Below are positions 4,951-59,483 of a DNA stretch of 64,000 nt, in pieces. The translations under genes were made by a program, and so were the position numbers. The notes under the pieces are model-generated. The model worked only from the letters and a program-made list of their open reading frames with translations, ran no database searches and was not told where the DNA came from. Position 1 is the stretch's first letter; each line of letters opens with the position of its first letter. The DNA comes from Paralvinella palmiformis. Taxonomy: Eukaryota > Annelida > Polychaeta > Terebellida > Alvinellidae. The DNA lies in NCBI GenBank assembly GCA_025642065.1, contig JAODUP010000722.1, forward strand, positions 62,001 to 126,000, read 5' to 3'.

Positions 4951-4985
4951 TGCAGCTTGTTCATATCCTAGGTGTTACCTAGGTG

Positions 4986-5306: not shown

Positions 5307-5309
5307 TAG

Positions 5310-34786: not shown

Positions 34787-35020
34787 TCATACACTGATAT
34801 CGAGCTTAGCTCGCGTTCTGTAATATTTGTGTTCTTTTCTCTCGTGGCGACGGGCGTTCGTTTCAAAGGTAAACTTCTTCTTACAACCTGGAAATGTGCA
34901 CTTGTACTGTGGCGTGGCACCGGTACGACAGCTCCGGCCAGCATGAGATCCTGACTGGGAATACGGCTGCTGCCACGGTGAATCCTCCTCATCCCAATAT
35001 TCTACATATTCTATGTGAAT
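34787..35020 (-). CDS. Alternative zinc-finger exon E9 (last)
   Basis: Acceptor CTCTCTGCCACAG, phase 0, 77 codons plus stop. It starts with an acidic, aromatic stretch (IHIEYVEYWDEED) not seen in the other exons. The finger is C41, C46, H59, H64 (YKCTFPGC..FTFETNARRHERKEH). Predicted helix residues at -1, 2, 3 and 6 are F, T, N and R. It is the most distal exon from the promoter (24 kb from the shared exon). Confidence 0.85.
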   Translation of the reverse strand: MHIEYVEYWDEEDSPWQQPYSQSGSHAGRSCRTGATPQYKCTFPGCKKKFTFETNARRHERKEHKYYRTRAKLDISV

Positions 35021-38000
35021 CTGTGGCAGAGAGAAGAAATACGACATAAAACTGTTGGCAAATAACCCACGATCACGTGAAGAACTAGTAAGTAGCAGAG
35101 ACGTTAATAATAGCCTGCTGAATTGTTACAGATTTTCGTGAATATTTATAGATTTTGGACATTGTTATATTATTAGCATGAAATTAATCCACTAACAAAA
35201 TTATTCGTTCACCAGCAACTTGTGTAATGCAGTTAATTATGAAGTAACAGCCTGTGTGATTTAACTTAGTCACAAACACAAATGCCTACATATCATCCAA
35301 AAAAATGTACGTCCAACTTCAAATAAATGTTATAAATATAATTATTTCATGGCATGGTTTGTTGCAAACTCCACAGCAGACCTGCAGGTAATGGGATCAA
35401 ATCCCAAAGTTATTGTGTCCACTGGATATTTCATCTGATCATCCCATCTGATCAGGAAGTGTGCTTTTGGACATATCGGCCAATCTAAATGACACTTAGA
35501 GATGCAGCCAGTTGTCTCAACACCAAACAGGTTTATCTCCTGGGTATTACAAACTTTAATTTGTTTATTCCCAGTAAGGTATTTACTCGGATAAACACAT
35601 CAAACTTTTGTATCCGCATGATGGAAATAATCAACGTCCACACGCATATCGGCTAAATGAAAAGCAACGGGCAGCACTGATTTAGAAACACGAACGTGCA
35701 AATGAATTGGCAAAAGGAACTTATCCACAAGCCATGGCCAGAACTTCTCTGATTGCTAGAACTCCATAAATGATTCTCTAAACTAAAAAAAAATGGCTCA
35801 AAATCAAATCCGTAGTTCGCTGCTGAATGGAAAGATGTCCTCACCAACATTGAGTCATATATTATTCTCTCAGATCAGATTTTCCACATATTAAAATATG
35901 CCATACATCTAAGATATGTAAAACATGGCAACGTGGCATATATTTAGAAGTGTTAATGATATACAATTGTATATGTTTCGATTCCACAAAAGTAAACCAA
36001 AACTGAAATGAATCTATCCGTTCCAATATGCTGCTTTTTGGTTTTGTAGCATCCATTGTAACATTGGACCCCTCTCTCCATGGCAGAAACAGTACTGTTG
36101 TTAGCCGGAGACCTCTAGTACCAGGGTTCAAAAGCCACATCCGAAGGATGTTTCATTATTTAAATCAGCAAATATTTGACATTGCAAGTGCACAAAAAGT
36201 TTCATTCATTTATAATACAAATTCGTATATATGCTTCCCACACACTGGTAAATGGCCTCAGTGCTGATATGTTGATATTAGTCATTAGACTGATGTCAAC
36301 AAGCCTACCCACATATAGGGGGTAGGCTTTTTACTAAACACAAAATATTTACTCTCACATTGTAATTTACTTAAGCTCTCCATTGCTCTTTGACCAGCAC
36401 AGTTCTCATGCACCAAAACAGAGCCATGAAGCCAAACCTAGATCACAAGGGGGGGGGGGGATATGTACTAATCGCCTACCTGGTAACAGACTTCTAGCAT
36501 TAGAATTCAAATTACGACCTGGTAGATATGTATGAAGGATGTTTCATCCTTTACTGTCTCATTACTTTGAAGGCTGACTGGACTATTTAGCCCACCATGA
36601 GCATAAAAGATTTCACATTATCCAACACTACACACAAACTACGCTACCTCTGTGGTGTTAAAGCACATAGTTTTCTTCTTCCACTACGGTCATTTCTGCT
36701 ATAAATTAATAATGCAATAGTCAAGTTCATGTGTGACTCTGAATTGTAGGAAAATCACGCAATAGCTATAAGACAGTTTATGGAAAAATAAGGTGGATAG
36801 CCAATAAAAACTTGAGATCAAAATAAATATAGCAATAAGTTTAAAACAAGCCACAGCCAACTTTATATAGAGATGTCATACACTATATATGATAGGTTTA
36901 CCTGAAATGAAAATTGCAAATAACTTGGAAATAGAAAGAGAAGCGATTTTCACTCTATTGACTTAATTGAAAATAGGAGCTTTAGATTGTAATCATCAAC
37001 TTAGGGCAGACGCTGAGAGGTGACACCCGAAGGAAACACATCTCACCAACACAGGTGTGAGCCGGATTTGAACTCAGAACAACAGGATTACCCAGATTCA
37101 TCTACTGGTCAGTGACCGATCTTTGGTCACGATTTTACAGATCTGCTTACAGCACGCACTCAAACTTGTTCCAGTAACACAGCAGGTTGTTCCAATCATT
37201 TTGTTTCGTTAATTGCATCGCATGTTTCATTACAGTTGGATAAACACCAAGGTCACTTTCATAATGCTTAAACATTTTTAAACATCTACCCTCTCTACGA
37301 GTGCTGTAGTATTTTCTTTTACGTCCATCAGAATTATTGGAAATAAACTCATCACTTCACTCCGGTGTCCCATATCTGTGCATAATATGGCGGCAATATT
37401 TGTGAAAAATAAATATAATTCAGGGAATCTTTAAAAGATCACTTCACAACAAAGCAACTGAGTCTTTTAAACAAGTGTAGTCAATGCGAAGACTCATTAA
37501 TAATTATTTGCATAGCACTGCTGTGACAAGTTTTGCTAGGTTCTAAAAATGCTAAATTTAATATCAGAAAATGGATGATGAATATTCATTCAACGGCGTG
37601 AGATTAACAAATCATGAATGTACAAATTTCAAAGCAGTACAATTTAACGTCCAATCATATTTTTGTGTTTACAGTAGGGTTTTAGGTGGAATTGTACATT
37701 AGTCATAACATGTTAGCAGAAGTTTACATTTAACCTACAGTGTCGACATATTCCTCAAACTTGTTAAATTACAGCCAATTTACATGAACAAAAAAATGGA
37801 CAACAGCAGATTAGTTGATATTATATATGAATTGCATCAAAAATAACTACACAAAGAATATTATATATAAAATATATCAAGATAAGGAAATAAATCTTAT
37901 TTGAAAGGAAAGCAAAAAAACTTGTATGGCCAATACAGAATCAATACCACTATATATATATATATGTGTGTGTGTAAACTAAAACACACACACATATATA

Positions 38001-40282
38001 TACACTAAATGCAGATCAACACACTGAAAACAATCAGTTTGCTTTAATAAAATTTATTACCAGGTATAAAAATTACAACAGTTTATCACATGTATTATCT
38101 ATATGAGATGTTAGACTGCCATAGTTACAACACAGTTTTAATCATGAATTATGATAAACATCGTCTTGTGTGTGTACACTATCTTAATTTAAAATAATAA
38201 GATACAACACACAATACACAACTCACATACACACACATACATGAAGAGAATAATTTTTCCTTAAATAGTCAGCAGTCACTTTACTACATAAACTTCCCAA
38301 TACGAAATACGCTAATGCCAGTGCTATTCACTAGATGTCACCACCAACGAAAATACCTGCCTTGAAAATAATTCCAACATTTTTCAACTTGACCTTCACT
38401 CACACCAATTCAACAACACAGTCAACAGAAATACTAACACACCTGGTCCGACATGACAGGAATCGAAAAAATGTGTTCCGATTAAATTACATTTGCATCA
38501 CTGGTGTTTTTCAAAGGAGCATAGGTAAATGCATCAATACTATTACGAATTGCAAATTACACACTAAAGAAATCCAAGTGAGAATTTCCAACATTGAACT
38601 TTGTTCTAGTTGCTTAATTAGACTTATGGCTTCTCCGAGTCAGATAACCGAGCACAAGAATTCCCAAGATATACAACTCTAAAGGTATCATTCCGTTTGA
38701 GAGAGGGATATATGTTGTATATCTACTGATAACTAGGCCCTTAACTACAAGCTTAAGAACAGACCGGAAATTCGAGACCATCATCTTAATAATGATGAAA
38801 TGGGAACAATTTAAATGGGAACTGTCTCTGACGTACGACGGGGGTGGGGCCATAAGACATACACCCACCATGTATGCAACAAGCGATTACAAACGGTACT
38901 ATAACAAAGAGCCTTGGGGCACAACAACCCGTTTCAAAACTAGCATTTCAAATGGATCAGTGTTTGATTTCTGTCGGCGATGCCGAAGGTTATTTAAATG
39001 TCTGCTACTGAACTGAACTGTTCACGAAGAAGACACGTCCGTCCTCGAACGATCACCTCCCCGACTGACTGGTCCGCGTACAGCGTACCGCGTTCCCGTC
39101 GTCCACCGTTCCTCGTTCCATCTCGTCAGCCAGCAAACTGAGCGAATTTTCGCCGACCAAGTGCTTGTAGCGTTTGTGCCGAGTCATGGTACGCTTTTCA
39201 TAGAACCTCAAATTACATCCGGGAAAGTCGCAGGCCCACGGTTTGTTCGGGGCCGTCTTTGGGCGATATTTTCGCATGAGGGGGTAGCCGTGTTGGAATA
39301 TTGCCACGCTGCCGCCAACCGCTATCCTCGGCGGGCCGTTCTTCTGGCTGGCAGTCCATTTCGCGCTGCCGCCGTGTTTGGCGGCTCGACCACTAGAGGG
39401 CGCCTTCAGCAGACCCTGTTGCACGAAGCTCGAAACAACGGGCGACGTATAAATCTGTATCGAGGAGAGAAAAACAGCTTTGTTTATATCCGAAGATGGT
39501 GTCCTTTATATAAGCCATGAAACCTATTGTGAGTAATAAGAAAAGAACAGGGTGGGGGGGGGGGGGTTAAGAAACCTGGGTCATTGGAAAATGGTGAAAT
39601 TTAAAAAAAAATCCAGATTGGAAGAAAAAGAGGAAATCCGCTAATAGAAGTCAGAAATATTAATGTGCACAATGGAGATAAGTGTTTGTACTTGTTGACT
39701 TCGTGTGTACTTTTTATTATGTTATAAAACGTTAATACGACGTGGCCTCAGACGTTTTAAAAGTGAACGAACAAATACAACTTCAACGCACTCCATTGTG
39801 TAACAATCGACAGAGGTGTTAGTAAGCCTGTGAGAGTCAACAAAATATTTGTACACAATACGCAAATAATAGCTAGACATCAGTTACCTGGATATCAGGC
39901 AATCACCTTCAAAGTACACGGCTACATCGTATCTATATGTTAGTTAGCAAAATGCGAACACGGTAACTAACGTGAAGCAAAATGTGAAACTATCATGAAG
40001 TTTAACCGCCTCAAGAATGTGAAGAGACGGCAGTTGATATTAGTGAGTGAGTGAGTGAGTGAGTGAGTGAGTGAGTGAGTGAGTGAGTGAGTGAGTGAGG
40101 AGTCAAACGAGCGAGCGAGTGAGTGAGGTAATTACCAAAAAGAGCCTTTATTGTCAACATCTTTTAGTTGTCTCTTGTCACATGAAGAACTGATCAGTTT
40201 TTAAATAGGAACCTTCATAATTGGGTTGAAGTGAATAACCATGACATCCAGACAACATATCATTCAGTATCATCGCCTACAC

Positions 40283-40314
<32 letters not shown>

Positions 40315-40561
40315 AGAAGTAGCAAATTCTAAACTCTGAAACCTCATAAAGCTACTGATACTGATGACAAAAACTTTCAATACGTAATCTCAGATATGTT
40401 TACAAAATCACAGGGCACAACTACATATCCGAGTTTCTGATGAGACAAAACTACCAATTAAAGTTTTCAATTGAGCCATCAGACCTTTATTACAATATGG
40501 TAATTTGGTCTGAAGTCCATTTCCTAACAGAGACACTTAGAAACCCAGCAGGAACTATTTT

Positions 40562-40598
<37 letters not shown>

Positions 40599-42550: not shown

Positions 42551-42586
<36 letters not shown>

Positions 42587-45500
42587 CGCGCGCACCATTT
42601 ATTCTGTAGCCATTTTAACAACGGGCATCTTGCGCAATGAGAAAGCAACATTTGTAACAAATAACAGTTCCAAAACATCAACAAGTCAACAAATGAGACT
42701 CACATTATACGATAATATCATAATCAACCTGCAGAACACGTCAGTGGGAAAACCTTAAAATGGCTGCATTAAATTTACGGTAACACACAATCATCATCAT
42801 CATGCTTACCATGTACTCATATCATCGCTACAAAAATGATCAGCTCACTGAAAACAATTACAGTTCTAACTGAATGCAGCTGTACTGAATACATCAAACA
42901 AAAGTCCTAACAACTAATCGTGTATCAATTAGTTAGTGTAAAGAAATTCCCAACTAACTGTACCACTCGAGATTCCCGAGGAAAATAAATCCATTAACAT
43001 TTCTTGCCAATAACCGAACTGTTCCCGAGAAATCAACCAACGACGGGACATGATAGTGCTGTAATTCGTCAACAAATCCCGGTGGAAAGAGGGAAAATAA
43101 ACATTCGCCATCTCTTCTGGCACGGTACACGGTTGGTCTGGGGCTGATTTTAACTGGTAAAGTTTTCCAGACGATGCAGACAATCAACTCAAGGTAGTGT
43201 CGCCATCTCTTTGCAAGCGATCAAAGCAGTATTAACATACCACCCGCTACTCAAGACACTTTACCACTACCAAAACAAATTACGTATTAGTTACTTTCAC
43301 ATTAGATATGGAAAAAAAATGTCCATTACTTTAGTTTACAATACGCTTGGTCTAAACTAATATGGCCACTTCCTGCCTGGTACAGCCCCACTAAAAATAA
43401 CTCCGCCTAATAATCACTACCGGATCAGCTGTTTACAATTCCAGCATATATTTTGACGGCCGAAAAAGGAAGTCCAGCACGGACCCTCTCTCCCCTGGTA
43501 GCATCTATATGTACCACATAACTTACGCTGCCACTCGTCTCGTGAACGTTCTTTGAACGGCCCCAGTTGCCTCACAACATGCTTCACGCAGCGGTTACAC
43601 TCCCCATAGGCTGCAACAACGCGAGCATATCTTAGTGACAGATCTTGTGTAAATATGCGAAATACGACCAAATGACAAGGCAGATGGGGCGGCTAAATGT
43701 TTGCTCTATGGCAGACCAGATCTTTCCGCAGGTTACGACAGCAGTCAGGAATAATAACACACGAATGGCAGATTGGTACCCTGCCCTCTGACGTAAAAAG
43801 TGCAATACCCGATACCCAACAGATACCCGGTTAACGTTACCAGCGCTGACTGATCAATCCGTTCCCACCATGCCACTGTCAATGACAACTACATCATGGA
43901 CAACTGTGAAAATGGCTCATCCATATTTATATCGCGTTTTACATAAATATACACAGTATACTCAGAATGTTAACTGTCCACAGCTACTGACCACGATGTA
44001 AATAGACAACCGTATCTACAGGGGAAGAGGGGTTATCTATCATCTACCATCTTATGCTCTTTCAACTGGCAGGTCAGATCGATTCCGTTCATGGCAATAT
44101 AAGTGGTAGGACTAGAGACCAGTGTGTGACCGTTATCGTTACACTCCCATATTCCCTTCTGCGCGATATCCATCGATCTCAGCGAACACGTAACCGATGT
44201 AACATCGGGGTGTTTCGTTTTCCAGGACGCCTACGGCACATCGAAAACCAAATCGAACTATTTCGTTTTGTTGCGGCCATGTTTATAAGTCTGATGACGG
44301 AGCATGTTTTTCTTGAAGCAGAATTTCAGGTGACAACCGGGATATCCGCAGACAAAGGCCCTCTCAACTACTGCCGTACTGCGACGCCTTCTTATTGGTG
44401 GCAGCAGTCTTTCTAACGTCAGCAAACTGGATGGATCACCCGTGCCTAGATACTTCACGTCGCAATAGGAGTTATGTCTATTATAACCGGCATCCGCGGG
44501 GTTCGGATTTCTAGGCGGATGAGACATCTGAATGGCGGAGCTCGGCGTCGTCGTGATGCAGCCGATGTCCGTTTGCAGGTTTGGCCCAGCATACGGGTGA
44601 AACGCCTCCTGTTGGAAGAACACGGAAGCTCGATTAACTTTCAGTGATGCCTTAACATGTGTACAGTAGGCTGGTTGTGGGGGGGGGGGGTTGCGTTTCT
44701 GCGTGCAGAAAAACGAAAACTGGGGCTTTGGGAAACGTACGCATTAATTCAGGATCTGCTTAAATCAGATACGTCAACATCCTCACTAATAATTAGATTG
44801 CGTCAAATCGTTCAAAACAACTTGTAATGGCAAACAGCTTTCATCGCTCTTTTGCGCTGGTTTTTAATTCACGTTTCATTCCGTCAGCGTCTCTTAAACT
44901 TATTGCAAATTATACTTAGTAACGTTATAATTGGACATCAGCCACTTAATAGATTCTTGTCCAGTTATATGTCTTGGCCACTTGAAGCCGTATTATTCAT
45001 TTGGCTGTGGGAGTTCAAATGCTGTACTTAAGGAAGCCCCTTCACCTACAGTACTAACAGGCAATGCCTGCGTTGATCGACCATCTGTAAATGGCCAACA
45101 GTCTAGTTTTTGTCAAGTCATGCATGGTATGATATCTTTTCAAATGAATGTAGCATATTGATAATCAACGCAATCAATTTCTAGAAGATACCCACACAAG
45201 CGTCCCTGGTGATCAATAATACCACATCGACCATGGGAGCTAATAAAACACTAGACGCCCTTGACCAAGTATCGAATACCATAAAGTCACAATTCAGTGG
45301 CGCCAACAATTGATGATCATCATACAAGATGGAGCTTAATTCTGACTTGATACATTATCCTCTAAAAAATTATGATACAGTTAATACAGATATGGCACAA
45401 ATGTTGTTGCTATTGTTGTTGTTATTACAGTTGATGCCGTTTAGATGTACCTTCATTCCGATCTTGTTTGATCATGCTGTGTTCGTTATGTGTAACTGAT

Positions 45501-48500
45501 CATATTTCACAACCGTAGCCTCGTGAGAGGAAGAAAACCTGAAAAGGTGAATAAGTAAACAAGGGACTAACTGAACAGCTCTGGAAACCTGCAGTTGACC
45601 ATCAGACTCCGTAGGATATTTCGCAGCGCTGGCCCGGTCAGACCCACGGACCCGCTTTGCTTATACACATCTACGAGACAACCTAGTCTGCCCGTGTATG
45701 GTCTGGTCTATTGCTAAATGCTAAAGTTTAAGCTCTCCACGTTTTGAGGTTTTTTTTTAACACCCCCAATCTTCTTTACTGGCTACCACTCTAAATCACA
45801 GATCCAGTAAGAACAGATCGAACTGGTGCTATCGCGTTCTTATCCGCAAGCGGTGTCCCTTCGAAACCACTCAGAATTCAACACATTTTAACAGATGATG
45901 ATGATGATTGCTCTTTTACGGCCACTTTTGTGCACAAGGTAGGCTAAATGGGCCGAGCTACTTCCAAAGGTGATGAGACGAAGTGAAAGACGAAACAACC
46001 TTTAGATATGCCCAAGCACATCGAGCCACTCGAAGCACTAAACATACATCGCCCGCAAACACTTCACCCAGAAGAAGTTCAACCAGCAATAGTTTAACCA
46101 GCGTCAAGGCATAATACTACGCGGTTCTCCAACATCAAACACCGAACAAGAGAACAAAGAAGCGGGCCCCACAAGAGTAGTACAAGCTGTCGCCGCAACA
46201 GCGCCCACTATCGCATCACATCAGTGGCGCGTACACCGATCGGAACGTTTTCAGTCGTCCGTGTTTTTCGTTCTGGTGCCGCCGCATGTGTTGTTTGTGA
46301 TAAAAACGCGCCGCACAGCCCGGGTGGTCGCACTGGTACTGCTTGTCGACGCCGTGACGAGACCTCGGCGTCCGGGCGAATTTAAGCTGCATGGCTTCCC
46401 CGCCTGCGAGCGGACTCCAGCCCTGTTGACAGTAACCAACACCATCCCGTCCGGCCGTTAGCATCTAGAAATGGGGAAGAAAACAGCAAATCACCGAATG
46501 GTAATCAGAAGACAGCGGTCTCAAGCACGCGCCCTATAAGCCAGCTCAAGCTGGTGCACGCAAGCACAGACACATATTACCCATGCGAATGCAGTGGAAT
46601 TCCCTCGGAATGAACACCCCAAATACCTACCACCTGCTACAAGACAATCAATTCCCCCATATCTAGTACCAGAGGACCAGAGCTGAAAGTTTTAGAAACA
46701 AGTATTCAGGAACAGAATGCCGTTTGTGTTTATCCATTTCTAGGCCCTTTTCTCCCCATTCTGACTTCAAGAAGAATGTAGTCTTATACCTAGCCTCTGT
46801 TATACAGAGTCAAGCCATTGACTGGTTGAGTAATTGCCTGTTTGCCTTTTAGTGGTGCCGTGTAATGTTCAATAAATCTACTCTACTCCCAGCTGGGTCT
46901 CTTTCTATCAGTTCGTGCTGTATGCTATTGTTGAAGCCGGCGAATTCACGGCAGACATGTCACCCTAAATCAAATGTTAATGCTCCTATCACTGTCAAAA
47001 AAAACCTTTACAAGAAATGAATCGCATGCAAGTTAAGTACCATTTCTGGCGAGAGGGGTCTCACACACACACACCCTTTCTACATATATCTCACCAAGAC
47101 ATTATACCGAAAGACAGCAGTGACGTATTGAACTTTATTCCACGTAAACGACACAAAAACGTAACATTCTTAATATATAAATATCATGCAATAAATAAAT
47201 AAATAAATAAATATTAAAATCATATTAAATTTGAAATAATTATCGTGATAAATACTCCAACAGTATATTTAACTTCAATTCAATTTCCTCATACATTTAA
47301 CACAATTCTTAATTCTAACGCGCTGCACTCAAGTAAAAATAACAACTTATCTGACACTGAACTACTCGGATACAAAAACGGGCTAATTTTAAGTTCTGAA
47401 AATATTTCTCCTCGTCAAAGATAATACTTATATTTATAAAAACAACATCTGACTTGTAAAAGAAAACACGAATGGCATGGAAAGACAAAATAATTCACAC
47501 TATATAATTGTATTCTTTTTTAATAAATATAACGCCTGAGCATTCATAGCTTCTCCAAAGACATCCAAGTTAATGCTGTTGTTGCTCATCCAAAACGACT
47601 TCCCAATTCAAAGAGGTTTAAACACCACAGAGTCACATTCACTTCGGTCTCAATTGCAGCCTTGCTCACATCAGGCCGCAAACAGAGTACAATCATGCTG
47701 TGAGTGAGTAATTTGTTCTGAGGGTGCTTCTTCGGGAAACATCCCACGCGTGATTCAATTTTGAAACTCTAACTCGAGCTTTCCAGCGCAATGTTCTAAA
47801 TACCGAGCAATGAGAAAGAGGGGACCTATTGAGACATATTCGAGAAAAGTCTATATCAGTTTTTTAATAAGCTACTAGTCTTCACTTCCAACACTGTACG
47901 AAATAGCATCTTGTGAGCTGGAGTGACTGCGTGCTTAACATCGGTTATAATCTCAACTGAGACATGCTGCCGAGGAACTACTGGCTAGGGAACTGAATTG
48001 GTCACGATTAAGGCGTTTTATTGATGAATGAAACATCCTACAGAAAAGGGATACACTGGAAATATAGTCTGTAGGAAAATGCACTACGAAGTGCATCATT
48101 GGGGAAGCTTGGGTTGTTTGAAAAGTGAGTGAACGAGCGAGCGCCCTTTCTCGGCGCTAGAAAATACTGATTGCTGAAAAATACTGATTGTTGAAATATT
48201 AATTCAGTTGTGAAGCATTAACGTATATTATTGGTAGATATGTATCTGGAGAGCTCACCAAGGCAATTTAGAAGAAAAACCACTTATAGGTCGGTAGCGG
48301 CTAATATAACATATCTGGAGTATCTGTGGCAAACTAACAAACATTATGGCTCAGGAAACTGGACAAACAACGAACAGAACTAACCCCGCTACTCTTAACC
48401 AATTCCAAACTAATATATCAGTTGCAGCTCTCGACACACACACACACACACACACACACTGCCAACTACTGACTCCCTGTACTCATTGACGGTTCAACAT

Positions 48501-51500
48501 TTTCCAGGGTAGAATCTTGCTGACAGTAAGCCCTGATAGTTAGGCCCATCCTGCCTTGTCTTGCCACCGGTCGTCCGTGCTTCAGTGACTGATGCTGATA
48601 GAGGTTTTTGCGTTCATAGTACGACTTCGTACATCCGGGATATGTGCATCTAAAGCGCTTATCCGGGCCATAAACGGGGCGACGGCTCTTAAACCTAGCA
48701 AACCCTACCAGGGGGCGCCACAGCTGTGGAAGAGAAGCAAAGAAACAGTTTTAGAGCCAGTCTCCTTTTGGTCATTCTGTTCGGAAGTGAATGCGTTCGC
48801 TGTGGATTCCTACATCTAACCCCGCTCCGGATCGAAATGAACAAGGGGCATATTTCAGTGTCTGACACACGGCCCTGCAGAAATTACAGGCAGAAAGGTC
48901 CAAAGGTATCTTATCAAAATTAGTCGTCACGTCACCAGGTACACCATTAAGCTGACGTAACAATCCGAACAACTTCTAGAATGGTTAGGAAGCAATCCAA
49001 AAATTGAAAGACAGTTTGGGCGTAAACAACTTGGACGGGGTGAAGTTTGCAGTTCAATGGTATAAACAGAATCTAGAATGCTCTTTTTCGCTATGAGAGC
49101 TCCAATCTAACTTGTATATCGTTTCATCATAAATTATCACCGATAAAAAAGACATTCTTGCCAAATTTAACTAACGATGGGGTTCCTCATCGTATGCAGG
49201 TTGTAGGTGACATGCTGAGTCAACAGAGCGTATAAAATTAATTACCATTTACGCAGAACACAACGAAACTGGTTCCTGATAAAGTATCCTTCCAGCCGTG
49301 GGCAGAAGAAGTCTTGTATACTCAGCATCTGCATCAGATGACAGCATAATACACTGACCAAATTAAATAAGTTACTAAACATGCCTTTATTTTAATCATG
49401 TTCTTGTTTACTCTTTTTGTTCTTCTCTCGGTGCGGTAGTTCATATGGGACAAGTGGCCTTCAAAGTGGAAGATGAAATTACATTTAGGCGTACCTAAAC
49501 CGAGATTTGAATCGGGTGCTAGAAGTCTGTGATCAACCGTGTTACCAGTTCGGCCAAAGATACGCTCCACTATTCCGACATAACCAGACCAAACTATAAT
49601 GCGTAGTTAGATGACCACGTTTTTTTCTTCTTTTCGGATGAAGGGAAAAATAACAGGCTGAATCAAACACAACTTCACCTACTATCTACCAGTCAACCAA
49701 TGAAATAAACCAACTGAAAAGGGTCTCATTCAAGAGTTTTTCAAAATTAATACTATTATACTAAGCTGGGGAAAAATGATATTTTGTCTGCAAGCCAATA
49801 CAGCATCAAAGAAATAAATCGCTTTTATGCCAAACTGTTGCCGTCTTATGAAGCTAGGGGCAACAGTGCACGGACTTCAGAGAGCAAGTGAGCACTCGCA
49901 TTATTTGCACCAAATCAAACATCAAGCCAGACTGTGGTCACGACTATTAAACAAACACGACACCAACGAAACTGCAGCGTGACCTTTTCTGGCAAGCGGA
50001 AATCTCATCCTGGCAAATATTAGATTTAGCACTATTTCTTGCGTGCATCAACATTAAAGCAGAATTAAACTTCCACCGGTCTGCAGGCCATCACCTCAAT
50101 AACTGACACAAGTACGAAAACATAAAAATCTGTGTTAACCCTAACTGCTGAATATGTCATATCGGAATGTATTAAGAACGCAGAGTAGTTGACCTTGCCA
50201 ATGGTGTCCTTGCCCAGAAAATGATATTAAAAATAAAATTCTACAGAACTAGTCCACGTTCATTCAAGTGAGTATGTGGTTTCATGGTGATCTGACTATC
50301 TAGTGCATCTATAGTTGTTTTTTAAAGCTATGGCATTTACACCTCACTGCTCCGGTGAATCCTTTGGCAATATTAAACAAGGGCCGATAAAATAATATCT
50401 CACAGATACAGTTAAAGCATTGCTTTACTGCCGGACGAAGATGAAATCTATGTATTCGAGGTCAAATGCCAGCAGAGTATTCAGCAATAAGCAACGTGGA
50501 GATAAAAATGCTTTCAAGGACTAATGTGTGTTCAGACCCACACACACACACACACACCGTCGCCTAGCTGTAGGCTAATAAATGTCAAGCGCTGTTAGCC
50601 CGTACATATACGCCTGATTCTAGCGGATCTGGTGAAACTTTGGTCTGCAATGCGATGCAGCACAAATAAATACAGCCATGTCATTATTATGTATACAACC
50701 GAAAATAGTTCAGTAGTTTTATTTTGCATACGACTATGTATAAATGGTGAAGCACCATTACGCTTACACGTATCAAGTCACACACACACGTATATAAAAA
50801 TGCGTCATGGCATGTCAACCCGAATGTTTGGTATTTTGGCAAATGTGCCACATTCTTTTGTATCCGGTGTTTGCTTCGGTTCCACATTCTTCAATTCACA
50901 AACTGTCACAATATAGTATAAATCGGTTTTAGTAAACTCGCTTTATTATAACACAAAACTTATCAGCCGCTTTATTCAACAACACAGCCATAACATAATG
51001 CGTATTTATTAAAACCTTTTGCAGTTTTGTATAACGTGTAACAATGTACCAATGCCATTCTCACCACTGTAGGCACGGTTAAAGCATTTTGTTTGATTTA
51101 AAAGTCGTGAGAAGCACGCCTTAACAGACAACGTATTTGATTACTTTGTGTATCACTTAGTAAATTAAATACAATCAGCTGTGTGTAGCAAACAATCAAA
51201 CGGTTTGCAAAACACATACATACTAAGGGGGGAAAAGCAAATACAGATGATTAACTAATAAATACTATCACGTACCATAAAACATAATTTGCAATGTGTG
51301 TGCGCGTGCATGCGTGCGTGCACGCATGTACACGCGCGCGCGCGTATGTGTCTGCATTAAAGAATATAAGAAAATAAAAAATATATAAAATAAGCAAAAC
51401 CAAACAAAGCACAAAAATAAATAACAATGACCAGAACAACAAGCTTACCATTAGAGAAATAATATATATATATATATGATCCCCTATAGGCGAAACAAGG

Positions 51501-52786
51501 CAAAAAAAAGGATTACCAGCATAGCATTCGAAGAACAAAATGAGAGTCAAACGGACTTTGTGCTAACAACTACTGAAAAGCCTTTCCACATCTTCTGACC
51601 ATCATCGTACCACAGAGACCGTCAGTTGTGGATCAACTACTGCGCTAACCAAGCATCGTAAATGAAGTCTGTCACGAATTCCTTCGCAACAACAAAAACC
51701 CAAAAGTGGTCCACCAATGCCAAAGTGGAATATAGACTAGGAGAAACGGCTCTGAGTTTCAATGGACAATCGTACTGGCCTATATAACAGTCCAACGAGC
51801 CAAGACACTGTGCTGGTGCTGCTGTTGTTTGCCTAGCTTTGGTGCGTCTGCTTGCATTTAAGTACAAATGAAAACGGCGATGACTGGGTGTGTTTATCGT
51901 GCGCCTAACAGCCTTCTGCTAATATCCGTCGGCGCCATTCTCGACTGGACCAGGTGATCAAACGATATAGACTAGGTACAAAAACTGACGTTCGGCGTTC
52001 TGAGAAACTACTTCTCATATCTACAGCCACCGTCTTCGCCAACGCTGTAAAGCCTCCGTCATACTTCATGGGGTCGATTGAACAAATATCACATTCTGAT
52101 TGTATGCGCCGCTCGAATCCGAACGCGATTCGACACGCCACTACGAGATGTCCAATCCGGGTGGGCGTTCGTCCTCCATCGGGTTGCCGCCACCTGGCAC
52201 CTCCGACCCAGCGTTCAGCTGCCCGGTCTCGTATCCCAAACACTGGTTGTGGCTACTGAGGCTGAACTGGGAGATGCCGACCGCCGACTTGCCGAACAGG
52301 CCGCCATGTTTTAAGCGCTGGTGCCGATTGCGCTCGGGTCCTCGGTAAAAGGTCTTGTCGCAGCCGGGAAACTGGCACCGATACGGCTTATCGGGGCATT
52401 TGCTATCTCGGCGGAACAAGATACGCCTCCGTTTCGTCGGCGCACTGCCAAGCAGCGGCATGGCCATCGCGTCGCGAGTCATTGGATGATGATGACGATG
52501 GTGGGTGGGGGAGAGGTAGGTTGGCCACATGAGCTGTATGGACGAGTCACCGTGCTGACCACCCCGTCTCGCATCACGCTACAAATATACACATGAATGC
52601 TCCAATTAGCCAAAATGCTATCACTAGTCAGTGTAACTTAGCGTGGAATACATACTCAACACAATGCTGCCATTATGGAGCAGCTTCGCAATCCGTTATT
52701 AGTAAGTAACACTCTCGGCAGAGATTAGTAAGTGTGGGTCTGTAGACGGCATTCTCTTCCCGGCATTCGTGTGTAATTAGCGAGTA

Positions 52787-52822
<36 letters not shown>

Positions 52823-55800
52823 AATCACAGATGTACTGGTGTATGTATGTGTGTCTGGCAACTAATTCATTGATCACACCGTGCACTACAAAACTAAATC
52901 AGATCGACTCTAGGTGGTAGGATTTTATTAACAGAGAACACACCGATCTGCCTACAGTTTTACTTTACACACAGTTACAGAACATCTGGGACCCTTCCCC
53001 GCACTACTAAATCCAATAAAGGCAACCCATATCCAGATTACAGTTAAAGAGACTATCAGTAAATACAAACAGCAGTAATCACTAGTACAATTACAGACAC
53101 TAATCTGACGAGAAAGCCCTTATAAAAGACTACCGAGAGACATTATGAACACAACTTCCAATGACTCGTGTGACTAAATAACATCAATCGACGCTGATTC
53201 AACTCAGCCGCTGGATCGGACTATTTGTTAACCATGGACCAATCAGTGTTCGCACACTGGCTATCTGGAATTGGGGTGCCGTACAAGCTTTTGAATCTGG
53301 GCTTCGATGCGCGGCCATGTTTAAAGCGTTCGTGGCGTCGCAGATCCTGGCTAAAGTAGTACGCCTTCCTGCATCCCGCCACCTGACATCGGAATGGCTT
53401 TGCCTGCGACGCTACCGAACGGCGCGAAATTTCGCGCAGCACGGGCACACGGTTCCAGCCGGCAGGATGGACGCCGGTAGTGCTCTGCATTGCTGGTGCA
53501 GCGGCGGCCACCGACGAAGATGCCACGTTGCGCTTCGCCACCAGCTAGAAGAAAAACAAAGGCAAAAATGGTCAGTGGCGATGCGACCACAAAGCGTTCT
53601 CCACACTGGCCTGTTTACATAACACACGATAAAGCGCTACCCGGATAGAAAACGCTGCCCAACGACTCGGCACGCTAACTCCGTCAGGTTTTCGGATCAG
53701 TCGGACACTCGTCTATCACACGAAATGCCTCAAAAGCGGCGCCTCTGCCCTTCTGGTACATGGATGGTGCCACGTTATGGTAGGCCCTCTGGTGCCGATA
53801 CACGTCGAACGTGTATGAGAAAATGCGATTACAACCAGACAGGGTACACTGGAACCTCCGGCCCTTCTTGTTTGTGACACACAGGTATTGTTTGGACTCC
53901 ATCTGGCCCGGTTGTATGTATGTCTGGCTCTGCTGTGTAAACATGCCTGGGAAGCAAATTCCAGTCCAGGGCACAAGTCGACCCTGTGGGCAAGAACAAA
54001 GGGTCAGATGTCAGGTCACTGCATTGCCATATAAACAACAGGGATATTAAAATGCATTTCATTCATGCATGCAGCAGATGAAATATCAATTCTCAGTTCA
54101 GCCAACTGCTATATCTACCGCTAAAACATTGTTCTTTTGTATGTGTGTGTAGATGTGCCTGTATCCAAACCTACATGCTGGTGTGTGTGCGCACACACCT
54201 GTGCAGGTTAATGCACTTACATGCATATACCTTTTAGCAGATCGCCCCGCTATAGTCACAAACATACACATAAACAAAAACAGCGCCCATTTGAAGAGTA
54301 AATGCTTCAAACTTCAAAGTAATACTCCGGAGATCCAACAACCTGTAATTACATGCAGACGAGATTTTGTTACAAATAAATTGTCAGATACCCGTACGGA
54401 CAAGTTCGCTGCTGAAGCACAGAAACAATCCAAAACTCTAAATGGTCCGGTGTATTCTTTTTGTTCTCATAGCACGATAAGAGGCAGACTTGAAGACAAA
54501 AAGGCCAAGACGGCAAACAATCTTAACTGTTGGGTTGTCTTAAGGATCAGTAAACGCAGTAAGCAACAAACACAGAGCACTCTGCCACATGCAAATATAC
54601 CAGCACCAGTCGGTTGGTTGAACAGAGAGCCATATCCCGGTAGCCGTACGGTTTAGCTGGCCTCGTTTCGACGGTGCAATTCAATAGAGCGGCCGGCCAG
54701 GCACAACTTCGGCATACCAGCCCAACTCCGAACTATCGCTGCAGTAAACCAGTTGTCATGGTGACAATATAGCTGCTGCACTGCAGCGTCGGTGAGCCAA
54801 CAGCGGCCGCATTGAGCTGACAGACTACTGTTTGGCTGCGTGACCGACTCTATCACCTACGGCAAATTGCTGAAGGCGCCCAGTTATAATTAGCTCAACA
54901 AATATTGGCAACGGGCTACATACACACACACAGAGAGAGAGAGAGAAACTGCAATCAGGCCACAGTTGCTATTATATCTGGCTCCAAGTGAACACAAAGA
55001 CCAGGATGTTCATAGTTTGCAATTCCCACACCGTGTTTGGGCGTGGTCGGTGCAAGGCATTATCCTCCTTGTAATGTATGCACGGAACCAGCATAAATCA
55101 CAACTCTGCTGAATCGAGAAAAAGTCCACATCTGTACAACCAACACTCATAACTTGAACAACAACAAGTAATGACAAATAGTGTGAGATTTATTATATTC
55201 CTAATGAAGCATGAAGACCTACCAAAACCTGAACAGATTCACAATGACATACAAATCTATGGTAGCTACTGAAAAACATCAAATATCGGCATTATTTGTA
55301 GTAAGCCTATCTACTGTGAGAGTTAAACACAAAACGATTATAATTATATCTGGCCGGTAATCATCACTAACGTGTGAAGCTAACCACAGATCTAGCACAA
55401 CGGAGAAACAAAACTAAGATCACTAGAGGCTAGTTCGCTTGGTACCCATGAGGTTCTAAACACTACTCAGATGTACCACAAAATGTCAGAGTCAAACGTT
55501 CACATTTACATCCAGCATAGTGTCACGTGAGGAAATGCGCACATTAAGGAGGCTGGTCATTTTCAATCATCTGCCATGGGTTACGGTATTAGTGTCTCTC
55601 TGTACTACGATGATGGTTCTATCCGTCCAACATCCAATGACATCATGTGTCATATATTATGGCACCTGACTGTGGATAATACGATTGCTGTGAGCGCTTC
55701 GGCCGGCCCATACGCGGCTTGCCAACGTGGTTGGCACCATGGTTAATTCTCTGGTGGCGGTACACATCGCCCCGGTGGTAAAATTTCCTACCACAACCTG

Positions 55801-58800
55801 GTTCTGGACATTCGAAGGGCTTAAAACTGTAGCGAGGTCGGCGAAACGGCTGAATCATGTCCACGTTAGCGGCCGTCGTGGTCAGCAGGGGCCGCCTCAT
55901 TCGGATGTCGGCTCCAACTGCCAGGGGAGGGAGAGATGGCGCCACCTGGCGATCAAACAGAGAGGATGTCATCAGCGTTTTTGTCAGCGAATGATAAGAC
56001 ATTAATGTATGTTAGTCTCACTATGGTTAAACTGCTCCTCCTCCTCACTGAGAAAGCTTGCCACGATCTCATATAAACTAAAGCAATTATGTGTGTGAAA
56101 CGTTAGAGATTCCCAGATAACATTATATCTGACACAATGGCCCCACCAGTTGCTTGCCTTCTAATACAGCAATGAAATTGTTAACAGAAAATGTATTTGT
56201 TTCTGAGAACAGTTTGAAGTGTATGATGCCAAAACAGTTAAACCCAGGCAAATAAAACAGCTACATATCACAGGCAGTAACACACACACACACACAACGC
56301 CAGTATTAAACAGGATATGTATCTCTCTTAACAATGTCTCATTAATTTATGCAATGTACCAATCAAGACCAACTTGGTTCAACACGGTACAAGTGAACTT
56401 GTAGCCTCCTGGCATGGTTTTGTGGCTATGACAAGCTGCGGCGGCGTGTGTCTGCACTCTATAAAGCTAGCAATGAACAGAGTCACTACTGTTTCTGGCA
56501 ACCCGAAAGAATGACTCATGCCACAGAAATTAGAGTATCAATCACACTGATAATGATATGAAAGGAGGACATACTGGTGAGCAATACATGGCGGAGGGGT
56601 CACCGGAGAACAGAACATCAAAGGTTCAGCTTAGGCAACAGCGCCAGAAAGCAATCTGGCTGTTCACAATGAATGCCAGTAACCCAAGAGGAAAAATAAA
56701 TTCACTTATACTTTGCACTTGTATCTGTAACAAGGATGTATCCACACTTTCATACATGTAAGTAAATATAAACACATGCCCAACTAACCAACCAATCCAG
56801 ACTAGCAAGAAACGTAACAACCAACCAGTTAATAATGACACAGGTAACAGTGAGTGCCTAAATGACTAAGAATATGGTACAATCACCAATGTCTGTTTTA
56901 TTGAATATTCACCATTGTGTGGGATAAAACTATCTGTACTGGGTGAACCACAAATATCAAAAGTCGCTCGTCATATTACACATTTCGCCCTCCCCCCTCC
57001 CCATCTACTGTGATGTCTGTATATTCTGTGTAAAAAATCATTATTATTAATATTAAATATGGTGTTAGTTGAGGTGAAAGTAATAGAACTATGTACTTAG
57101 GCTGGTAGAGAACCAAATCACTTACCTGCCTTGCATCCAAGGAATAGCGAACATACTATGACACACAAGTCAGACCAGATACCGCACATATTTGCAGGAA
57201 CTCACTCATCACATCAGACATGATTATATATCATTATTCTAAACTGCTAATTTAACTGCTCTAGCTTAGCCGCATTTAACATATTCATACACAGAAACTA
57301 TCGGAATCCAGTTTCTAGCACACATGATTCGACTACATTCTGGAAAGCAGCAGAAACCTAAGTGGAGAGCAAATCACCTTGCCATTTCAAGCTGGCTTTA
57401 AACTAAATCAACCATAAATGTGCAATTATCAGGGAATTCCCCAAGTATGATTATTTACTCTGAACAGCACAAATCAATCCATCCATGTTGTTTTAACTAA
57501 CAAGACAATGAACTACCATACAAAAGCTGCACCAGTACCAGTGTGGAGACAGATGGACACAAGATATGGATTACTTTACAGAGACACAAAGCAATTCTGT
57601 CTGTTTCAAACACAGGATTACTTTGTGTACAAGTGGCATGCTGCTGTGAATATATTAGTTATTATGTTCCACAACTGACAGTAACTAGAACTGGAACCAG
57701 AATGCTCTTTACAAAACCGATGAAGACTGTCAGGACTAAATTTCTATCTGAAATTTCTCAATACACAATACTTTACCCTGAATTTTATTGTTTGGTGAGC
57801 ATTGCATCACTGAGAAAATCAACTCATGTGGCACCTGTCAAAATTGGGTATTGCTTCAAAATAACCTTCACAACTGATACACTGTCATCAAATTCCAGAC
57901 TATTACAGCAAATTTACATCATGGAAAGTAACTAAATATAATTCATATGTGCAAGAGGTTGCCAAAAGCAATATCCAAATTTGATAGATTAAACCTCACA
58001 TCTTCAACAGCATACAATTGTTTTTAATCAGTCTAGCTTTGATGTGCAGTCTGTGCTGAAGCTTCAAACAATGCAGCGTACCATTTAATGAATCTAGAGG
58101 TGCAGATAACAAACCAGACTAGATTCATTACCTTTCTTCCACAACGTTTTGTAGGTCTGGGCAAATATTCAGAACTTTACTAATTTTTCACACCAGAAAG
58201 GTACATCCACCCTACAGAAACTAAGAAAGACCCGAACCCAGTGGGAAAGTAAAAGAGACCAATTACGGCACTTCTGCATTATCACCCAAAAAAGAATCCT
58301 ACACACTCTTCACAGAAAGCTAGAGTGATCTTTCATCATTGTTAACATAGAATTTTCACCTTCCCTTAGCAAGAGCTGAACAGTTTGTTATGTGACAGCT
58401 GTGTTTAGTTTTAAACAGAACTTGTTACTATTTAATAACAGATTGGTCTGCTACTGCTAAGTGGAATTACTGTGATTAAATATGATGACCAGCACACTGA
58501 TACCTTTACATGTGAGGTGATGTTCTAAGAACATAGAAATTCAGAATTTATTTTGTCTGCCATAATATTTTGCCATTTAGCATTATGATTTGTTAGATCA
58601 AGTTGCTTGTGAAAAGATCTGTGTGTGTGCCTAATCGTGTTCATATTTATACCACAGTGTGCAGAACGGTTTACCTATGACTACCTACCGAATCTTGTGA
58701 CCCTGATTCTCCGGCTGTAACTTGTGATGGACCAGGTACTTGAGACTCCCACCCTGAACAGCCTGGGGCACTATCATAAGTTAACTGTCCCTCATTTGAA

Positions 58801-59483
58801 AGCTGACCAATGCCTGATAACTGAGATTCATCCAGCGACGAGTCACCCAAAGCATCATCAGCAGGTTTACTACTGTCACTTTTCATCAAACACGTACTGA
58901 ACGTTCCAGACAACTGCGACTGGCTGTCAACAAATGACTCCGAGGCTGAATCGGGCACTCTCCATTTTGGTGGAGGGACACTCTGCTGGGGTTGAGTGAT
59001 CTCACCGTAAGATTTCCGCATAGCCTCTCTATCCCCATCGCCTGATAAGTCATCTGTGTTAAAGTCACCATGGTCAAAGCATTTACTGTCAATAATCACC
59101 AGATCCTCATCAACCACCTCCTTTTTTACCTTGACTGCCGGACTTGCCACTCTTGACCATGCTTTTCGTTTTGCACTGCCTACTAAACCAGATGATGAGT
59201 ACTTCTGGGAAATATTTTTCTTTGATTTTAAATTTAAATCACTGGTTGCTGAATCTGCTGCCGCTATGGCTGATGTTTCTTCGGCATGGACACCGCTAAC
59301 CTGAGCACCAACAAGGCCTTTGAATATTTCATTGATGTGAACCACAAATACATCGTTGTTGTCCAGCGTGATGCCAAGCAAGCCCTGCACTTTGAGCTCC
59401 TCAGAGAAATGAAGTCCATTCTTACAAAGTAGTGTCACAGTGTCTGTCAGCAGAGTTTTCACCCTCTCCTGGTCTGCCTTCAT
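34787..59483 (-). CDS. Alternative-3'-exon C2H2 zinc-finger gene, full coding span
   Basis: One N-terminal coding exon (59483-58689, 265 codons, phase 0 out) is followed by nine exons. In transcript order they are E1 55945-55643, E2 53983-53684, E3 53544-53221, E4 52578-52141, E5 48723-48466, E6 46464-46216, E7 44608-44258, E8 39454-39053 and E9 35020-34787. Every one opens after an AG acceptor in phase 0, holds a single C-X4-C-X12-H-X4-H finger, and ends in its own stop. None has a donor after the finger that would be needed to chain them. The simplest model is mutually exclusive 3'-terminal exon choice, as in Drosophila lola. Products would be 342-410 residue nuclear proteins with one finger each. 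A basic stretch precedes most fingers, as in single-finger GAGA factor. The gene is inferred, not transcript-proven; intermediate exons cannot be excluded. Confidence 0.8.
35021..39052 (-). other. Interval between E8 and E9
   Basis: A 4 kb AT-rich interval. It includes the SINE copies at 36.0-36.6 kb, a run of about ten G at 36451, and an inverted SINE-head-like piece at about 37015-37135 (B-box-like ggatttgaactc). A minus-strand AATAAA (plus TTTATT at 38053-38058) lies about 1 kb after the E8 stop. No other finger-coding exon is visible. Confidence 0.6.
36055..36612 (+). repeat. Two diverged SINE copies
   Basis: About 36055-36160 shows a head-like stretch with 'ctagtaccagggttcaaaagcc' and 'aaggatgtttcat'. 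About 36466-36612 shows 'ctggtaacagacttctagcattagaattcaaat', 'gaaggatgtttcatcctttactgtctcattac' and 'ctatttagcccacc'. Both follow the family 1 order but are strongly diverged. Between them (36301-36330) is a short inverted repeat (aagcctacc / ggtaggctt). Confidence 0.5.
39053..39454 (-). CDS. Alternative zinc-finger exon E8
   Basis: Acceptor TCCTCGATACAG, phase 0, 133 codons plus stop. It begins IYTSPVVSSFVQQG. A basic, Gly/Ala-rich linker leads to the finger at C75, C80, H93, H98 (WACDFPGC..RFYEKRTMTRHKRYKH). Helix residues at -1, 2, 3 and 6 are E, R, T and R. The tail after the finger is acidic then basic. The exon is clearly more GC-rich than its flanks. Confidence 0.88.
   Translation of the reverse strand: MYTSPVVSSFVQQGLLKAPSSGRAAKHGGSAKWTASQKNGPPRIAVGGSVAIFQHGYPLMRKYRPKTAPNKPWACDFPGCNLRFYEKRTMTRHKRYKHLVGENSLSLLADEMERGTVDDGNAVRCTRTSQSGR
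40041..40099 (+). repeat. (GTGA)n microsatellite
   Basis: About 14 tandem GTGA units in an intron of the minus-strand zinc-finger gene. Confidence 0.95.
40286..40312. repeat. (TC)n microsatellite
   Basis: CT/TC run of about 13 repeats. A second one lies at about 40564-40593. Confidence 0.9.
41426..41612 (-). repeat. SINE family 1, full-length inverted copy
   Basis: Read on the minus strand it has a tRNA-like head (ccgcggtctagcggtagcg, then the B-box form gttcgaatcccgg). The well-kept body follows (cttcgtctcattacctttgg..ctcggcccatttagcctac..gtgcacaaaagtggccgtaaaacat) and ends in an (ATC)n tail. It looks like the youngest copy in the window because both promoter boxes are close to tRNA consensus. 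Confidence 0.85.
44258..44608 (-). CDS. Alternative zinc-finger exon E7
   Basis: Acceptor GTTCTTCCAACAG, phase 0, 116 codons plus stop, starting EAFHPYAGPN. A long polar, Pro/Asn-rich linker ends in a basic run (RRRR at 73-76) before the finger at C87, C92, H105, H110 (FVCGYPGC..KFCFKKNMLRHQTYKH). Helix residues at -1, 2, 3 and 6 are F, K, N and R. It ends six residues after the last histidine. Confidence 0.88.
   Translation of the reverse strand, partial: EAFHPYAGPNLQTDIGCITTTPSSAIQMSHPPRNPNPADAGYNRHNSYCDVKYLGTGDPSSLLTLERLLPPIRRRRSTAVVERAFVCGYPGCHLKFCFKKNMLRHQTYKHGRNKTK
44609..46215 (-). other. Interval between E6 and E7 with truncated SINE
   Basis: Contains a family 1 SINE at about 45893-46020 in inverted orientation (gatgatgatgattgc..tttacggccacttttgtgcacaagg..). 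Its tRNA-like head is missing. There is also a G run at about 44682. Otherwise I see nothing supported. Confidence 0.65.
46216..46464 (-). CDS. Alternative zinc-finger exon E6
   Basis: Acceptor CCCCATTTCTAG, phase 0, 82 codons plus stop, starting MLTAGRDG. The finger is C45, C50, H63, H68 (YQCDHPGC..RFYHKQHMRRHQNEKH), preceded by RTPRSRHG. Helix residues at -1, 2, 3 and 6 are H, Q, H and R. It is GC-rich and compact. Confidence 0.9.
   Translation of the reverse strand: MLTAGRDGVGYCQQGWSPLAGGEAMQLKFARTPRSRHGVDKQYQCDHPGCAARFYHKQHMRRHQNEKHGRLKTFRSVYAPLM
46465..48465 (-). other. Interval between E5 and E6
   Basis: A 2 kb interval, AT-rich, with (TAAA)n at about 47192-47215 and a (CA)n run at 48434-48459. 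A minus-strand AATAAA (plus TTTATT at 48017-48022) lies 444 bases past the E5 stop and is a likely E5 poly(A) signal. No exon is visible. Confidence 0.6.
48466..48723 (-). CDS. Alternative zinc-finger exon E5
   Basis: Acceptor TTGCTTCTCTTCCACAG, phase 0, 85 codons plus TAG, starting LWRPLVGF. A basic stretch (RFKSRRPVYGPDKR) precedes the finger at C26, C31, H44, H49 (FRCTYPGC..SYYERKNLYQHQSLKH). Helix residues at -1, 2, 3 and 6 are E, K, N and Q. This is the only member with Gln instead of Arg at helix position 6. The exon has no ATG before the finger, so it is easily missed by ORF finding; I read it directly from the sequence. Confidence 0.9.
   Translation of the reverse strand: MWRPLVGFARFKSRRPVYGPDKRFRCTYPGCTKSYYERKNLYQHQSLKHGRPVARQGRMGLTIRAYCQQDSTLENVEPSMSTGSQ
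48724..52140 (-). other. Interval between E4 and E5
   Basis: A 3.4 kb interval. About 49430-49565 holds an inverted tRNA-derived SINE piece (minus strand: ttggccgaactggtaacacg..cccgattcaaatctcgg). Alternating GT/GC and (AT) tracts lie at about 51295-51350 and 51462. Minus-strand AATAAA hexamers near 50941-50972 could serve E4. No finger exon is visible. Confidence 0.6.
52141..52578 (-). CDS. Alternative zinc-finger exon E4
   Basis: Two phase-0 acceptors fit: ATATTTGTAG at 52578 (145 codons, starting RDARRGGQHG) or CCATACAG at 52533 (130 codons, starting LMWPTYL). The finger is C68, C73, H86, H91 in the long form (YRCQFPGC..TFYRGPERNRHQRLKH). It follows a His-rich stretch and the strong basic run KRRRILFRR. 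Helix residues at -1, 2, 3 and 6 are R, P, E and R. The proline in the helix and Arg at the usual hydrophobic position 4 are unusual. Confidence 0.88.
   Translation of the reverse strand, partial: RDARRGGQHGDSSIQLMWPTYLSPTHHRHHHPMTRDAMAMPLLGSAPTKRRRILFRRDSKCPDKPYRCQFPGCDKTFYRGPERNRHQRLKHGGLFGKSAVGISQFSLSSHNQCLGYETGQLNAGSEVPGGGNPMEDERPPGLDIS
52791..52819. repeat. (AT)n microsatellite
   Basis: Perfect AT run of about 14 repeats between E3 and E4. Confidence 0.95.
52924..52929 (-). terminator. Candidate poly(A) signal for E3 (and E2)
   Basis: AATAAA on the minus strand, 292 bases after the E3 stop. There is no AATAAA, ATTAAA or TATAAA on the minus strand between the E2 stop and E3, so E2 transcripts may also end here. 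Confidence 0.45.
53221..53544 (-). CDS. Alternative zinc-finger exon E3
   Basis: Acceptor TTTTTCTTCTAG (strong pyrimidine tract), phase 0, 107 codons plus stop, starting LVAKRNVASSS. An Ala/Ser-rich linker precedes RRSVASQAKP and the finger at C53, C58, H71, H76 (FRCQVAGC..AYYFSQDLRRHERFKH). Helix residues at -1, 2, 3 and 6 are F, Q, D and R. It lies only 139 bases past the E2 stop. Confidence 0.9.
   Translation of the reverse strand: MVAKRNVASSSVAAAAPAMQSTTGVHPAGWNRVPVLREISRRSVASQAKPFRCQVAGCRKAYYFSQDLRRHERFKHGRASKPRFKSLYGTPIPDSQCANTDWSMVNK
53684..53983 (-). CDS. Alternative zinc-finger exon E2
   Basis: Acceptor TTGTTCTTGCCCACAG, phase 0, 99 codons plus stop, starting GRLVPWTGI. Finger at C46, C51, H64, H69 (FQCTLSGC..IFSYTFDVYRHQRAYH), preceded by TNKKGRR. 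Helix residues at -1, 2, 3 and 6 are Y, F, D and R. The distance from exon start to finger is identical to E1, suggesting that E1 and E2 are the closest duplicates. Confidence 0.9.
   Translation of the reverse strand, partial: GRLVPWTGICFPGMFTQQSQTYIQPGQMESKQYLCVTNKKGRRFQCTLSGCNRIFSYTFDVYRHQRAYHNVAPSMYQKGRGAAFEAFRVIDECPTDPKT
53984..55642 (-). other. Interval between E1 and E2
   Basis: A 1.7 kb interval. A minus-strand AATAAA (plus TTTATT at 55189-55194) lies about 450 bases past the E1 stop. A short (CA)n(GA)n run lies at about 54920-54946. A 167-codon plus-strand frame at 54153-54656 has no recognisable domain and starts in a low-complexity run. No exon is supported. Confidence 0.55.
55643..55945 (-). 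CDS. Alternative zinc-finger exon E1 (first)
   Basis: Acceptor CTCTCTGTTTGATCGCCAG, phase 0, 100 codons plus stop, starting VAPSLPPLAVG. Finger at C46, C51, H64, H69 (FECPEPGC..KFYHRGDVYRHQRINH) after RRPRYSFK. Helix residues at -1, 2, 3 and 6 are H, G, D and R. The frame stays open for 19 codons upstream of the acceptor, so a longer exon is possible. The pyrimidine tract favours the start given. Confidence 0.9.
   Translation of the reverse strand: MAPSLPPLAVGADIRMRRPLLTTTAANVDMIQPFRRPRYSFKPFECPEPGCGRKFYHRGDVYRHQRINHGANHVGKPRMGRPKRSQQSYYPQSGAIIYDT
55946..58688 (-). other. Intron between the shared exon and E1
   Basis: A 2.7 kb AT-rich interval. A short perfect inverted repeat (AATGAATCTAG / CTAGATTCATT) lies at 58087-58129. 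No further exon is supported, though short shared exons cannot be excluded. Confidence 0.55.
58689..59483 (-). CDS. Shared N-terminal exon of the zinc-finger gene
   Basis: ATG at 59483-59481 opens 265 codons to a GTAGGT donor in phase 0; unspliced, the frame stops at 58671. Residues 1-58 look like a folded, conserved-type domain (MKADQERVKTLLTDTVTLLC, then LKVQGLLGITLDNNDVFVV). The rest is polar and disordered, with basic patches (KSKK, KRK), a SUMO-type VKKE (119-122), and an acidic Ser/Gln-rich tail with repeated QLSG/QLSN words. No BTB, SCAN or KRAB domain is present. I do not recognise the N-terminal family. An oligomerisation or partner-binding role is inference from the lola analogy. 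All nine downstream exons fit this phase. Confidence 0.85.

Follow-up and report, generated by a model that had tools for sequence, protein, structure and literature searches.

The 64,000-base stretch of Paralvinella palmiformis DNA analysed here (the window) very probably contains a gene organized like Drosophila lola, in which a constant N-terminus is combined with one of nine alternative terminal exons carrying zinc fingers, and which lies outside the BTB family. In the proposed scheme, a single gene begins with a constant coding exon and has nine alternative terminal exons to choose from. The former would encode a small helix-hairpin domain, most likely serving self-association or partner binding, and behind it a long disordered stretch. 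From the phase-0 donor of this exon, cis splicing would lead to any one of nine acceptors, all in phase 0, and the exon behind each acceptor would contribute one C2H2 finger and a stop. Up to nine transcription factors could be made in this way, sharing a partner-binding part and differing in their DNA-contacting tails. The same plan, one N-terminal exon followed by one to about 40 finger exons, appears to recur across the genome. Isoform production, promoter use and DNA binding by the window gene are what we infer from its sequence.

Gene Structure

The shared N-terminal exon (58689-59483, minus strand) begins with an ATG at 59483 and is 795 bases (265 codons) long. Four codons before the ATG stands an in-frame TAA (59493-59495); the start and the domain that it opens are conserved in relatives, the start methionine being invariant across ten aligned family members. 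The exon ends in phase 0 at a TCG|GTAGGT donor (58689/58688), and a second donor candidate, CATAG|GTAAAC, equally good by eye, lies 14 bases beyond it in phase 2. Comparison with related sequences favours the phase-0 site for two reasons. First, six sister exons (at C2374, C1109, C1959, L011, L013, and L014) contain near their ends an in-frame CAG|GT site that is read through, CAG being followed at C2374, C1109, and C1959 by GTGTGT or GTTTGT. Second, unspliced relatives continue, as seen at the protein level, into V-G or V-S (GTAGGT or GTAAGT in frame) where the joined proteins diverge; the pairs compared were P0082 with P0101, P0109, and P0121, P0122 with P0123, P0143 with P0189, and P0131 with P0190. 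The phase-0 donor of the original prediction is thus present and preferred, with the phase-2 site as its competitor.

Scanned in six frames, the full 64,000 bases contain nine fingers of the form C-x4-C-x12-H-x4-H and no others, all of them on the minus strand from 34829 to 55810; in 60 first-order Markov sequences matched in composition, the average count was 0.067 and the highest was one. No additional finger of this spacing was found in the 30 kb below or the 20 kb above the window. The scan bears out the earlier description of nine identically spaced fingers with their own stops behind the 265-codon exon; the short exons carrying them are spread over about 24 kb. Named from e9, the alternative 3' exon nearest to the shared one, down to e1, and all on the minus strand, they are e9 (55643-55945, finger 55739-55810), e8 (53684-53983, finger 53777-53848), e7 (53221-53544, finger 53317-53388), e6 (52141-52578, finger 52306-52377), e5 (48466-48723, finger 48577-48648), e4 (46216-46464, finger 46261-46332), e3 (44258-44608, finger 44279-44350), e2 (39053-39454, finger 39161-39232), and e1 (34787-35020, finger 34829-34900).

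Acceptors were ranked by a simple score that considers the pyrimidine tract, the base at -3, the AG, and the first exon base. For eight of the nine exons the highest score falls on a phase-0 acceptor (55945, 53983, 53544, 48723, 46464, 44608, 39454, and 35020), precisely where phase-0 acceptors had been predicted. The prediction holds less well for e6, where the best score, itself weak, belongs to a phase-2 site (52444, 0.6) and the phase-0 sites at 52578 (-0.4) and 52533 (-0.7) score lower still, so the acceptor of this exon is uncertain. The gap from the e8 stop to the e7 acceptor (53545-53683) measures only 139 bases and contains neither AATAAA nor ATTAAA; these two exons therefore probably share a 3' end.

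Pfam searches covered eight of the finger exons, that is, all except e4. The zf-C2H2 family was found in each of the eight (E from 0.00018 to 0.59), in none above the Pfam cut-off of 25.2 bits; by this measure the window exons encode weak finger domains. The FLYWCH domain was absent from the same eight exons, which gave only these sub-cut-off zf-C2H2 matches and chance ones.

Elsewhere in the window, two frames on the plus strand (18338-22390) resemble, by eye and in translation only, exons of a secretory carrier membrane protein (SCAMP), and broken frames on the minus strand (3821-5333) resemble by eye a reverse-transcriptase retroelement. Two tandem arrays were also found, one of 29 copies of a 32-base unit (9172-10109) and one of about 17 copies of a 25-base unit (24728-25150).

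The N-terminal Domain

Residues 1-57 of the shared exon (59313-59483, minus strand) were modelled by AlphaFold2 as a helix (residues 2-23) followed by a beta-hairpin (strands 29-40 and 44-55), with a pLDDT of 90.4. The shared exon matched no Pfam family at E up to 1, a PDB sequence search with the N-terminal exon gave no match, and the predicted fold had no convincing match among PDB structures. When 71 family members were scanned against Pfam, 38 families matched weakly, and BTB was not among the 25 of these that were shown. In 15 of the 71 members there was a weak, sub-threshold match to STN1_2, the STN1 C-terminal family (best E 0.0014), as in P0193, where residues 6-48 scored 14.9 bits against a cut-off of 27.2; the window's own N-terminal sequence did not match it. 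This resemblance of the relatives' N-terminal domain (alignment A5) may reflect chance or a distant tie. A comparison with the MADS-box fold of SRF, MEF2, and Mcm1, a dimer in which a helix is followed by a beta-hairpin, gave a weak hint. We regard it as a candidate for a new Pfam family.

Two relatives (P0127 and P0128) carry the N-terminal domain twice in tandem within one protein. The N-terminal exon itself seems to have been copied repeatedly in tubeworm-like relatives, several copies apparently sharing a contig; for P0112, P0116, P0118, P0149, P0150, and P0171 the longest contig given is in each case one of 533,565 bases.

Sister Loci in the Genome

The original prediction concerned a single locus. 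The locus is real, and the scale was underestimated: it belongs to a genome-wide system that includes larger arrays of two-finger exons. A search with a sister exon's N-terminal domain found 37 N-terminal-domain exons in the same 594-Mb genome (E < 2e-4); the window's 207.5-kb contig has one such match. A two-finger exon from C2374 used as query yielded 998 candidates. Scores were obtained for 150 of them, 91 in short frames (at most 170 residues) and 59 in longer ones. Among these 150, 85 of the 91 short-frame matches lie no more than 60 kb downstream of an N-terminal exon on the same strand, a zone for which the chance expectation is about 0.2%, as against none of the 59 long-frame matches, which represent ordinary multi-finger genes. 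The six short-frame matches with no N-terminal exon nearby are at C1777, C543, C1822, C2380, C2181, and C2253. On the last of these contigs there are short-frame finger exons (C2253:11946-47694) and no N-terminal exon was found; their N-terminus has either diverged and been missed or is located on another contig.

Counted per N-terminal exon among the 150 scored, there are 40 two-finger matches at C1109, 29 at C2374, 5 at C1959, and 4 and 2 at C943, and a single one behind each of the N-terminal exons at C2197, C532, C2128, C2181, and C1366; matches are not strictly exons, as two neighbours at C1109 may be one exon. The C2374-derived query favours C2374 copies, and the largest array nevertheless lies on a different contig. 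The two largest arrays, both exceeding that of the window, comprise about 40 two-finger terminal exons behind one N-terminal exon (C1109:738625-788553, L040 and L041) and about 30 behind another (C2374:1047834-1100883, L022-L028). When 70 kb of C2374 were read directly, 30 two-finger motifs were found on the plus strand, with the best acceptor in phase 0 for 28 of them; 20 kb of C1109 contained 24 motifs, all on the strand of the N-terminal exon, with 21 best acceptors in phase 0. At C2374, C1109, and C1959 no two-finger motif occurs on the opposite strand. Phase 0 was likewise best for three of three exons at C1959, both two-finger exons and the one single-finger exon at C2128, and both exons at C55. 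Together with the window, these five loci give 65 phase-0 best acceptors for 71 finger exons or motifs, a tally that leaves out the C2197 and C2181 exons (other spacings) and in which exons that arose by duplication do not count as independent evidence of phase. The window and these sister loci share the layout of one common exon and several terminal exons in the same phase, each with its finger or fingers and a stop.

The single-finger class was searched for with 39 residues from exon e5. Of 24 matches, 11 had E < 0.01: seven window exons (the query included), two at C55, one at C2128, and one at C2041. Ten of the 11 stand behind an N-terminal exon, in the window, about 5 and 6 kb downstream of C55:491115, or 12.5 kb downstream of C2128:169387; the C2041 match sits in a 969-residue frame. 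The C55 and C2128 single-finger exons have their best acceptor in phase 0 and end in their own stop. The 13 weaker matches (E 0.07 to 1.9) comprise one more window exon and 12 sequences elsewhere, some of them in short frames. From this placement, and at this sensitivity, the single-finger class pairs with its own subset of N-terminal exons.

N-terminus Joined to Fingers in Other Species

Three protein searches returned 269, 347, and 379 proteins, and the best 120 of each gave 214 distinct relatives; Ridgeia piscesae and Lamellibrachia satsuma are named among the matches listed. These two names and three matches to Eryth_link_C (best E 5.6e-11), a linker of annelid haemoglobin, agree with an annelid source. 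A C2H2 finger was recognized by pattern in 20 of the 214. Eighteen of these, 11 single-fingered and seven with several fingers, combine it with the N-terminal motif on contigs of 1.0-3.2 kb, where N-terminus and finger follow each other in a single frame uninterrupted by an intron, as they would in mRNA, which suggests that these short contigs derive from RNA. Of the other two, P0130 (contig up to 7.2 kb) has a finger and no N-terminal motif, and P0132, a Lamellibrachia satsuma gene model (LSAT2_010159) on a 603-kb contig, has two fingers after the N-terminus. These joined relatives, the linkage of 85 of the 91 short-frame matches, the 37 N-terminal exons, and the lack of Pfam or PDB sequence matches lend support to the earlier proposal of an independent lola-like locus with an unrecognized, non-BTB N-terminus.

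Five of the 20 tails prefer one window exon by at least 15 bits over any other: P0082, P0122, and P0130 match e8, P0133 matches e7, and P0158 matches e5, four of them (all except P0130) being joined contigs. The other 15 are ambiguous, P0148 leaning to e9 by 3.5 bits. At least three window exons are thus likely to have counterparts in other species, which would make the array old. Four tubeworm gene models are named among the matches, P0132 with its fingers, P0160, which is partial, and P0019 and P0102, which have no finger and appear to run on into the intron; the finding matters for annotation as well.

Evolution and Use of the Finger Exons

All 56 two-finger exons of one spacing at C2374, C1109, and C1959 differ in the combination of residues at the presumed base-contact positions, which were assigned after Zif268. 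Over all 56 exons these positions are not more variable than their neighbours (2.58 vs. 2.62 bits in finger 1, 2.42 vs. 2.31 in finger 2), so diversifying selection toward new DNA specificities finds no support here. In nine of 18 near-duplicate two-finger pairs, the unsaturated ones, all at C2374, dN/dS is 0.10-0.35, which indicates that the C2374 coding sequence is kept by purifying selection. Divergence among the window fingers is too great for dN/dS; in 35 of their 36 pairs, all except e5-e2, pS is higher than pN.

These data bear on the possibility that the window holds a degenerating cluster of tandem-duplicated finger exons, of which only one or two are used and the others are relics. 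The two-finger exons clearly arose by duplication and those of the window probably did; one window acceptor (e6) is weak, and the fingers fall under the Pfam cut-off. Such decay is nevertheless improbable, as all nine window exons still have their metal ligands, an uninterrupted frame, and a stop codon, the best acceptor of eight is in phase 0, other species join the N-terminus to tails matching three different window exons, and the C2374 near-duplicates are under purifying selection.

Somewhat less probable again is an arrangement of separate genes, with a promoter and start for every finger exon and an N-terminal exon that serves only the nearest of them. An in-frame ATG precedes the finger in seven of the nine window exons, some N-terminal exons have a single finger match downstream, and each tail in the relatives is attached to a different N-terminal body: no N-terminal exon with two different tails was found among the 214 listed. 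Since these bodies differ from one another, the relatives attest joining rather than several tails per exon, and in their species every tail might come from a gene of its own. Against this arrangement, e5 and e1 have no in-frame ATG ahead of the finger within the exon, acceptors at the very start of the exons would be pointless in first exons, and one N-terminal exon precedes about 40 finger exons at C1109 and about 30 at C2374, with no second N-terminal match inside either array. Chaining of the finger exons into one multi-finger mRNA, for which the two fingers of P0132 and the multiple fingers of seven of the 18 short-contig relatives might speak, is hardly credible, because every window finger exon closes with its own in-frame stop and the single phase-0 donor-like pattern among those scanned lies at the extreme end of e2.

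Comparison with Known Systems

Alternative use of nine terminal exons behind one constant exon, our preferred reading, has its closest parallels in arthropods. Drosophila lola is described as using cis and trans splicing to attach one of at least 20 unique ends, the majority with fingers, to a common part that contains a BTB domain (PMC1947980). For mod(mdg4), a constant BTB N-terminus trans-spliced to produce at least 30 isoforms, mostly with FLYWCH ends, is reported; the same source gives TTK-group BTB factors, whose BTB type both genes have, as arthropod-specific, the TTK motif having been sought and not found in Annelida or Mollusca (PMC11426971).

The window gene resembles lola, as so described, in its one common N-terminal part and many alternative 3' exons, most of which in lola encode zinc fingers. 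The common part of lola has a BTB domain, whereas that of the window gene has a predicted helix-hairpin with no BTB match; we therefore do not place the system in the lola family despite its lola-like anatomy. While lola is reported to use both cis and trans splicing, the arrays read here lie on the strand of their N-terminal exon, so cis splicing suffices. Also unlike lola, the system comprises a family of 37 N-terminal exons, one of them ahead of about 40 finger exons. With mod(mdg4), as far as the source describes it, the window gene shares a constant N-terminus with many alternative ends, but neither the BTB domain nor the FLYWCH ends of that trans-spliced gene were found here. The layout is also that of the arthropod TTK-group, a multimerizing N-terminus with variable DNA-binding C-termini, although N-terminal multimerization is here only putative.

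We consider it likely that an annelid lineage evolved, apart from the arthropod BTB factors, its own system of factors with a constant domain and alternative fingers, based on a new helix-hairpin association domain and ranging from loci with few exons to loci with 9, 30, and about 40 ends (more than the 20 of lola), which would provide a large combinatorial repertoire of partner-sharing proteins. If so, the solution represented by lola evolved at least twice on unrelated domains, which would point to a general need and not to an arthropod oddity. Loci with 30-40 finger exons would rank with the largest arrays of this kind known to us, and the choice of terminal exon, cis versus trans splicing, and the coding of isoforms would become testable outside insects.
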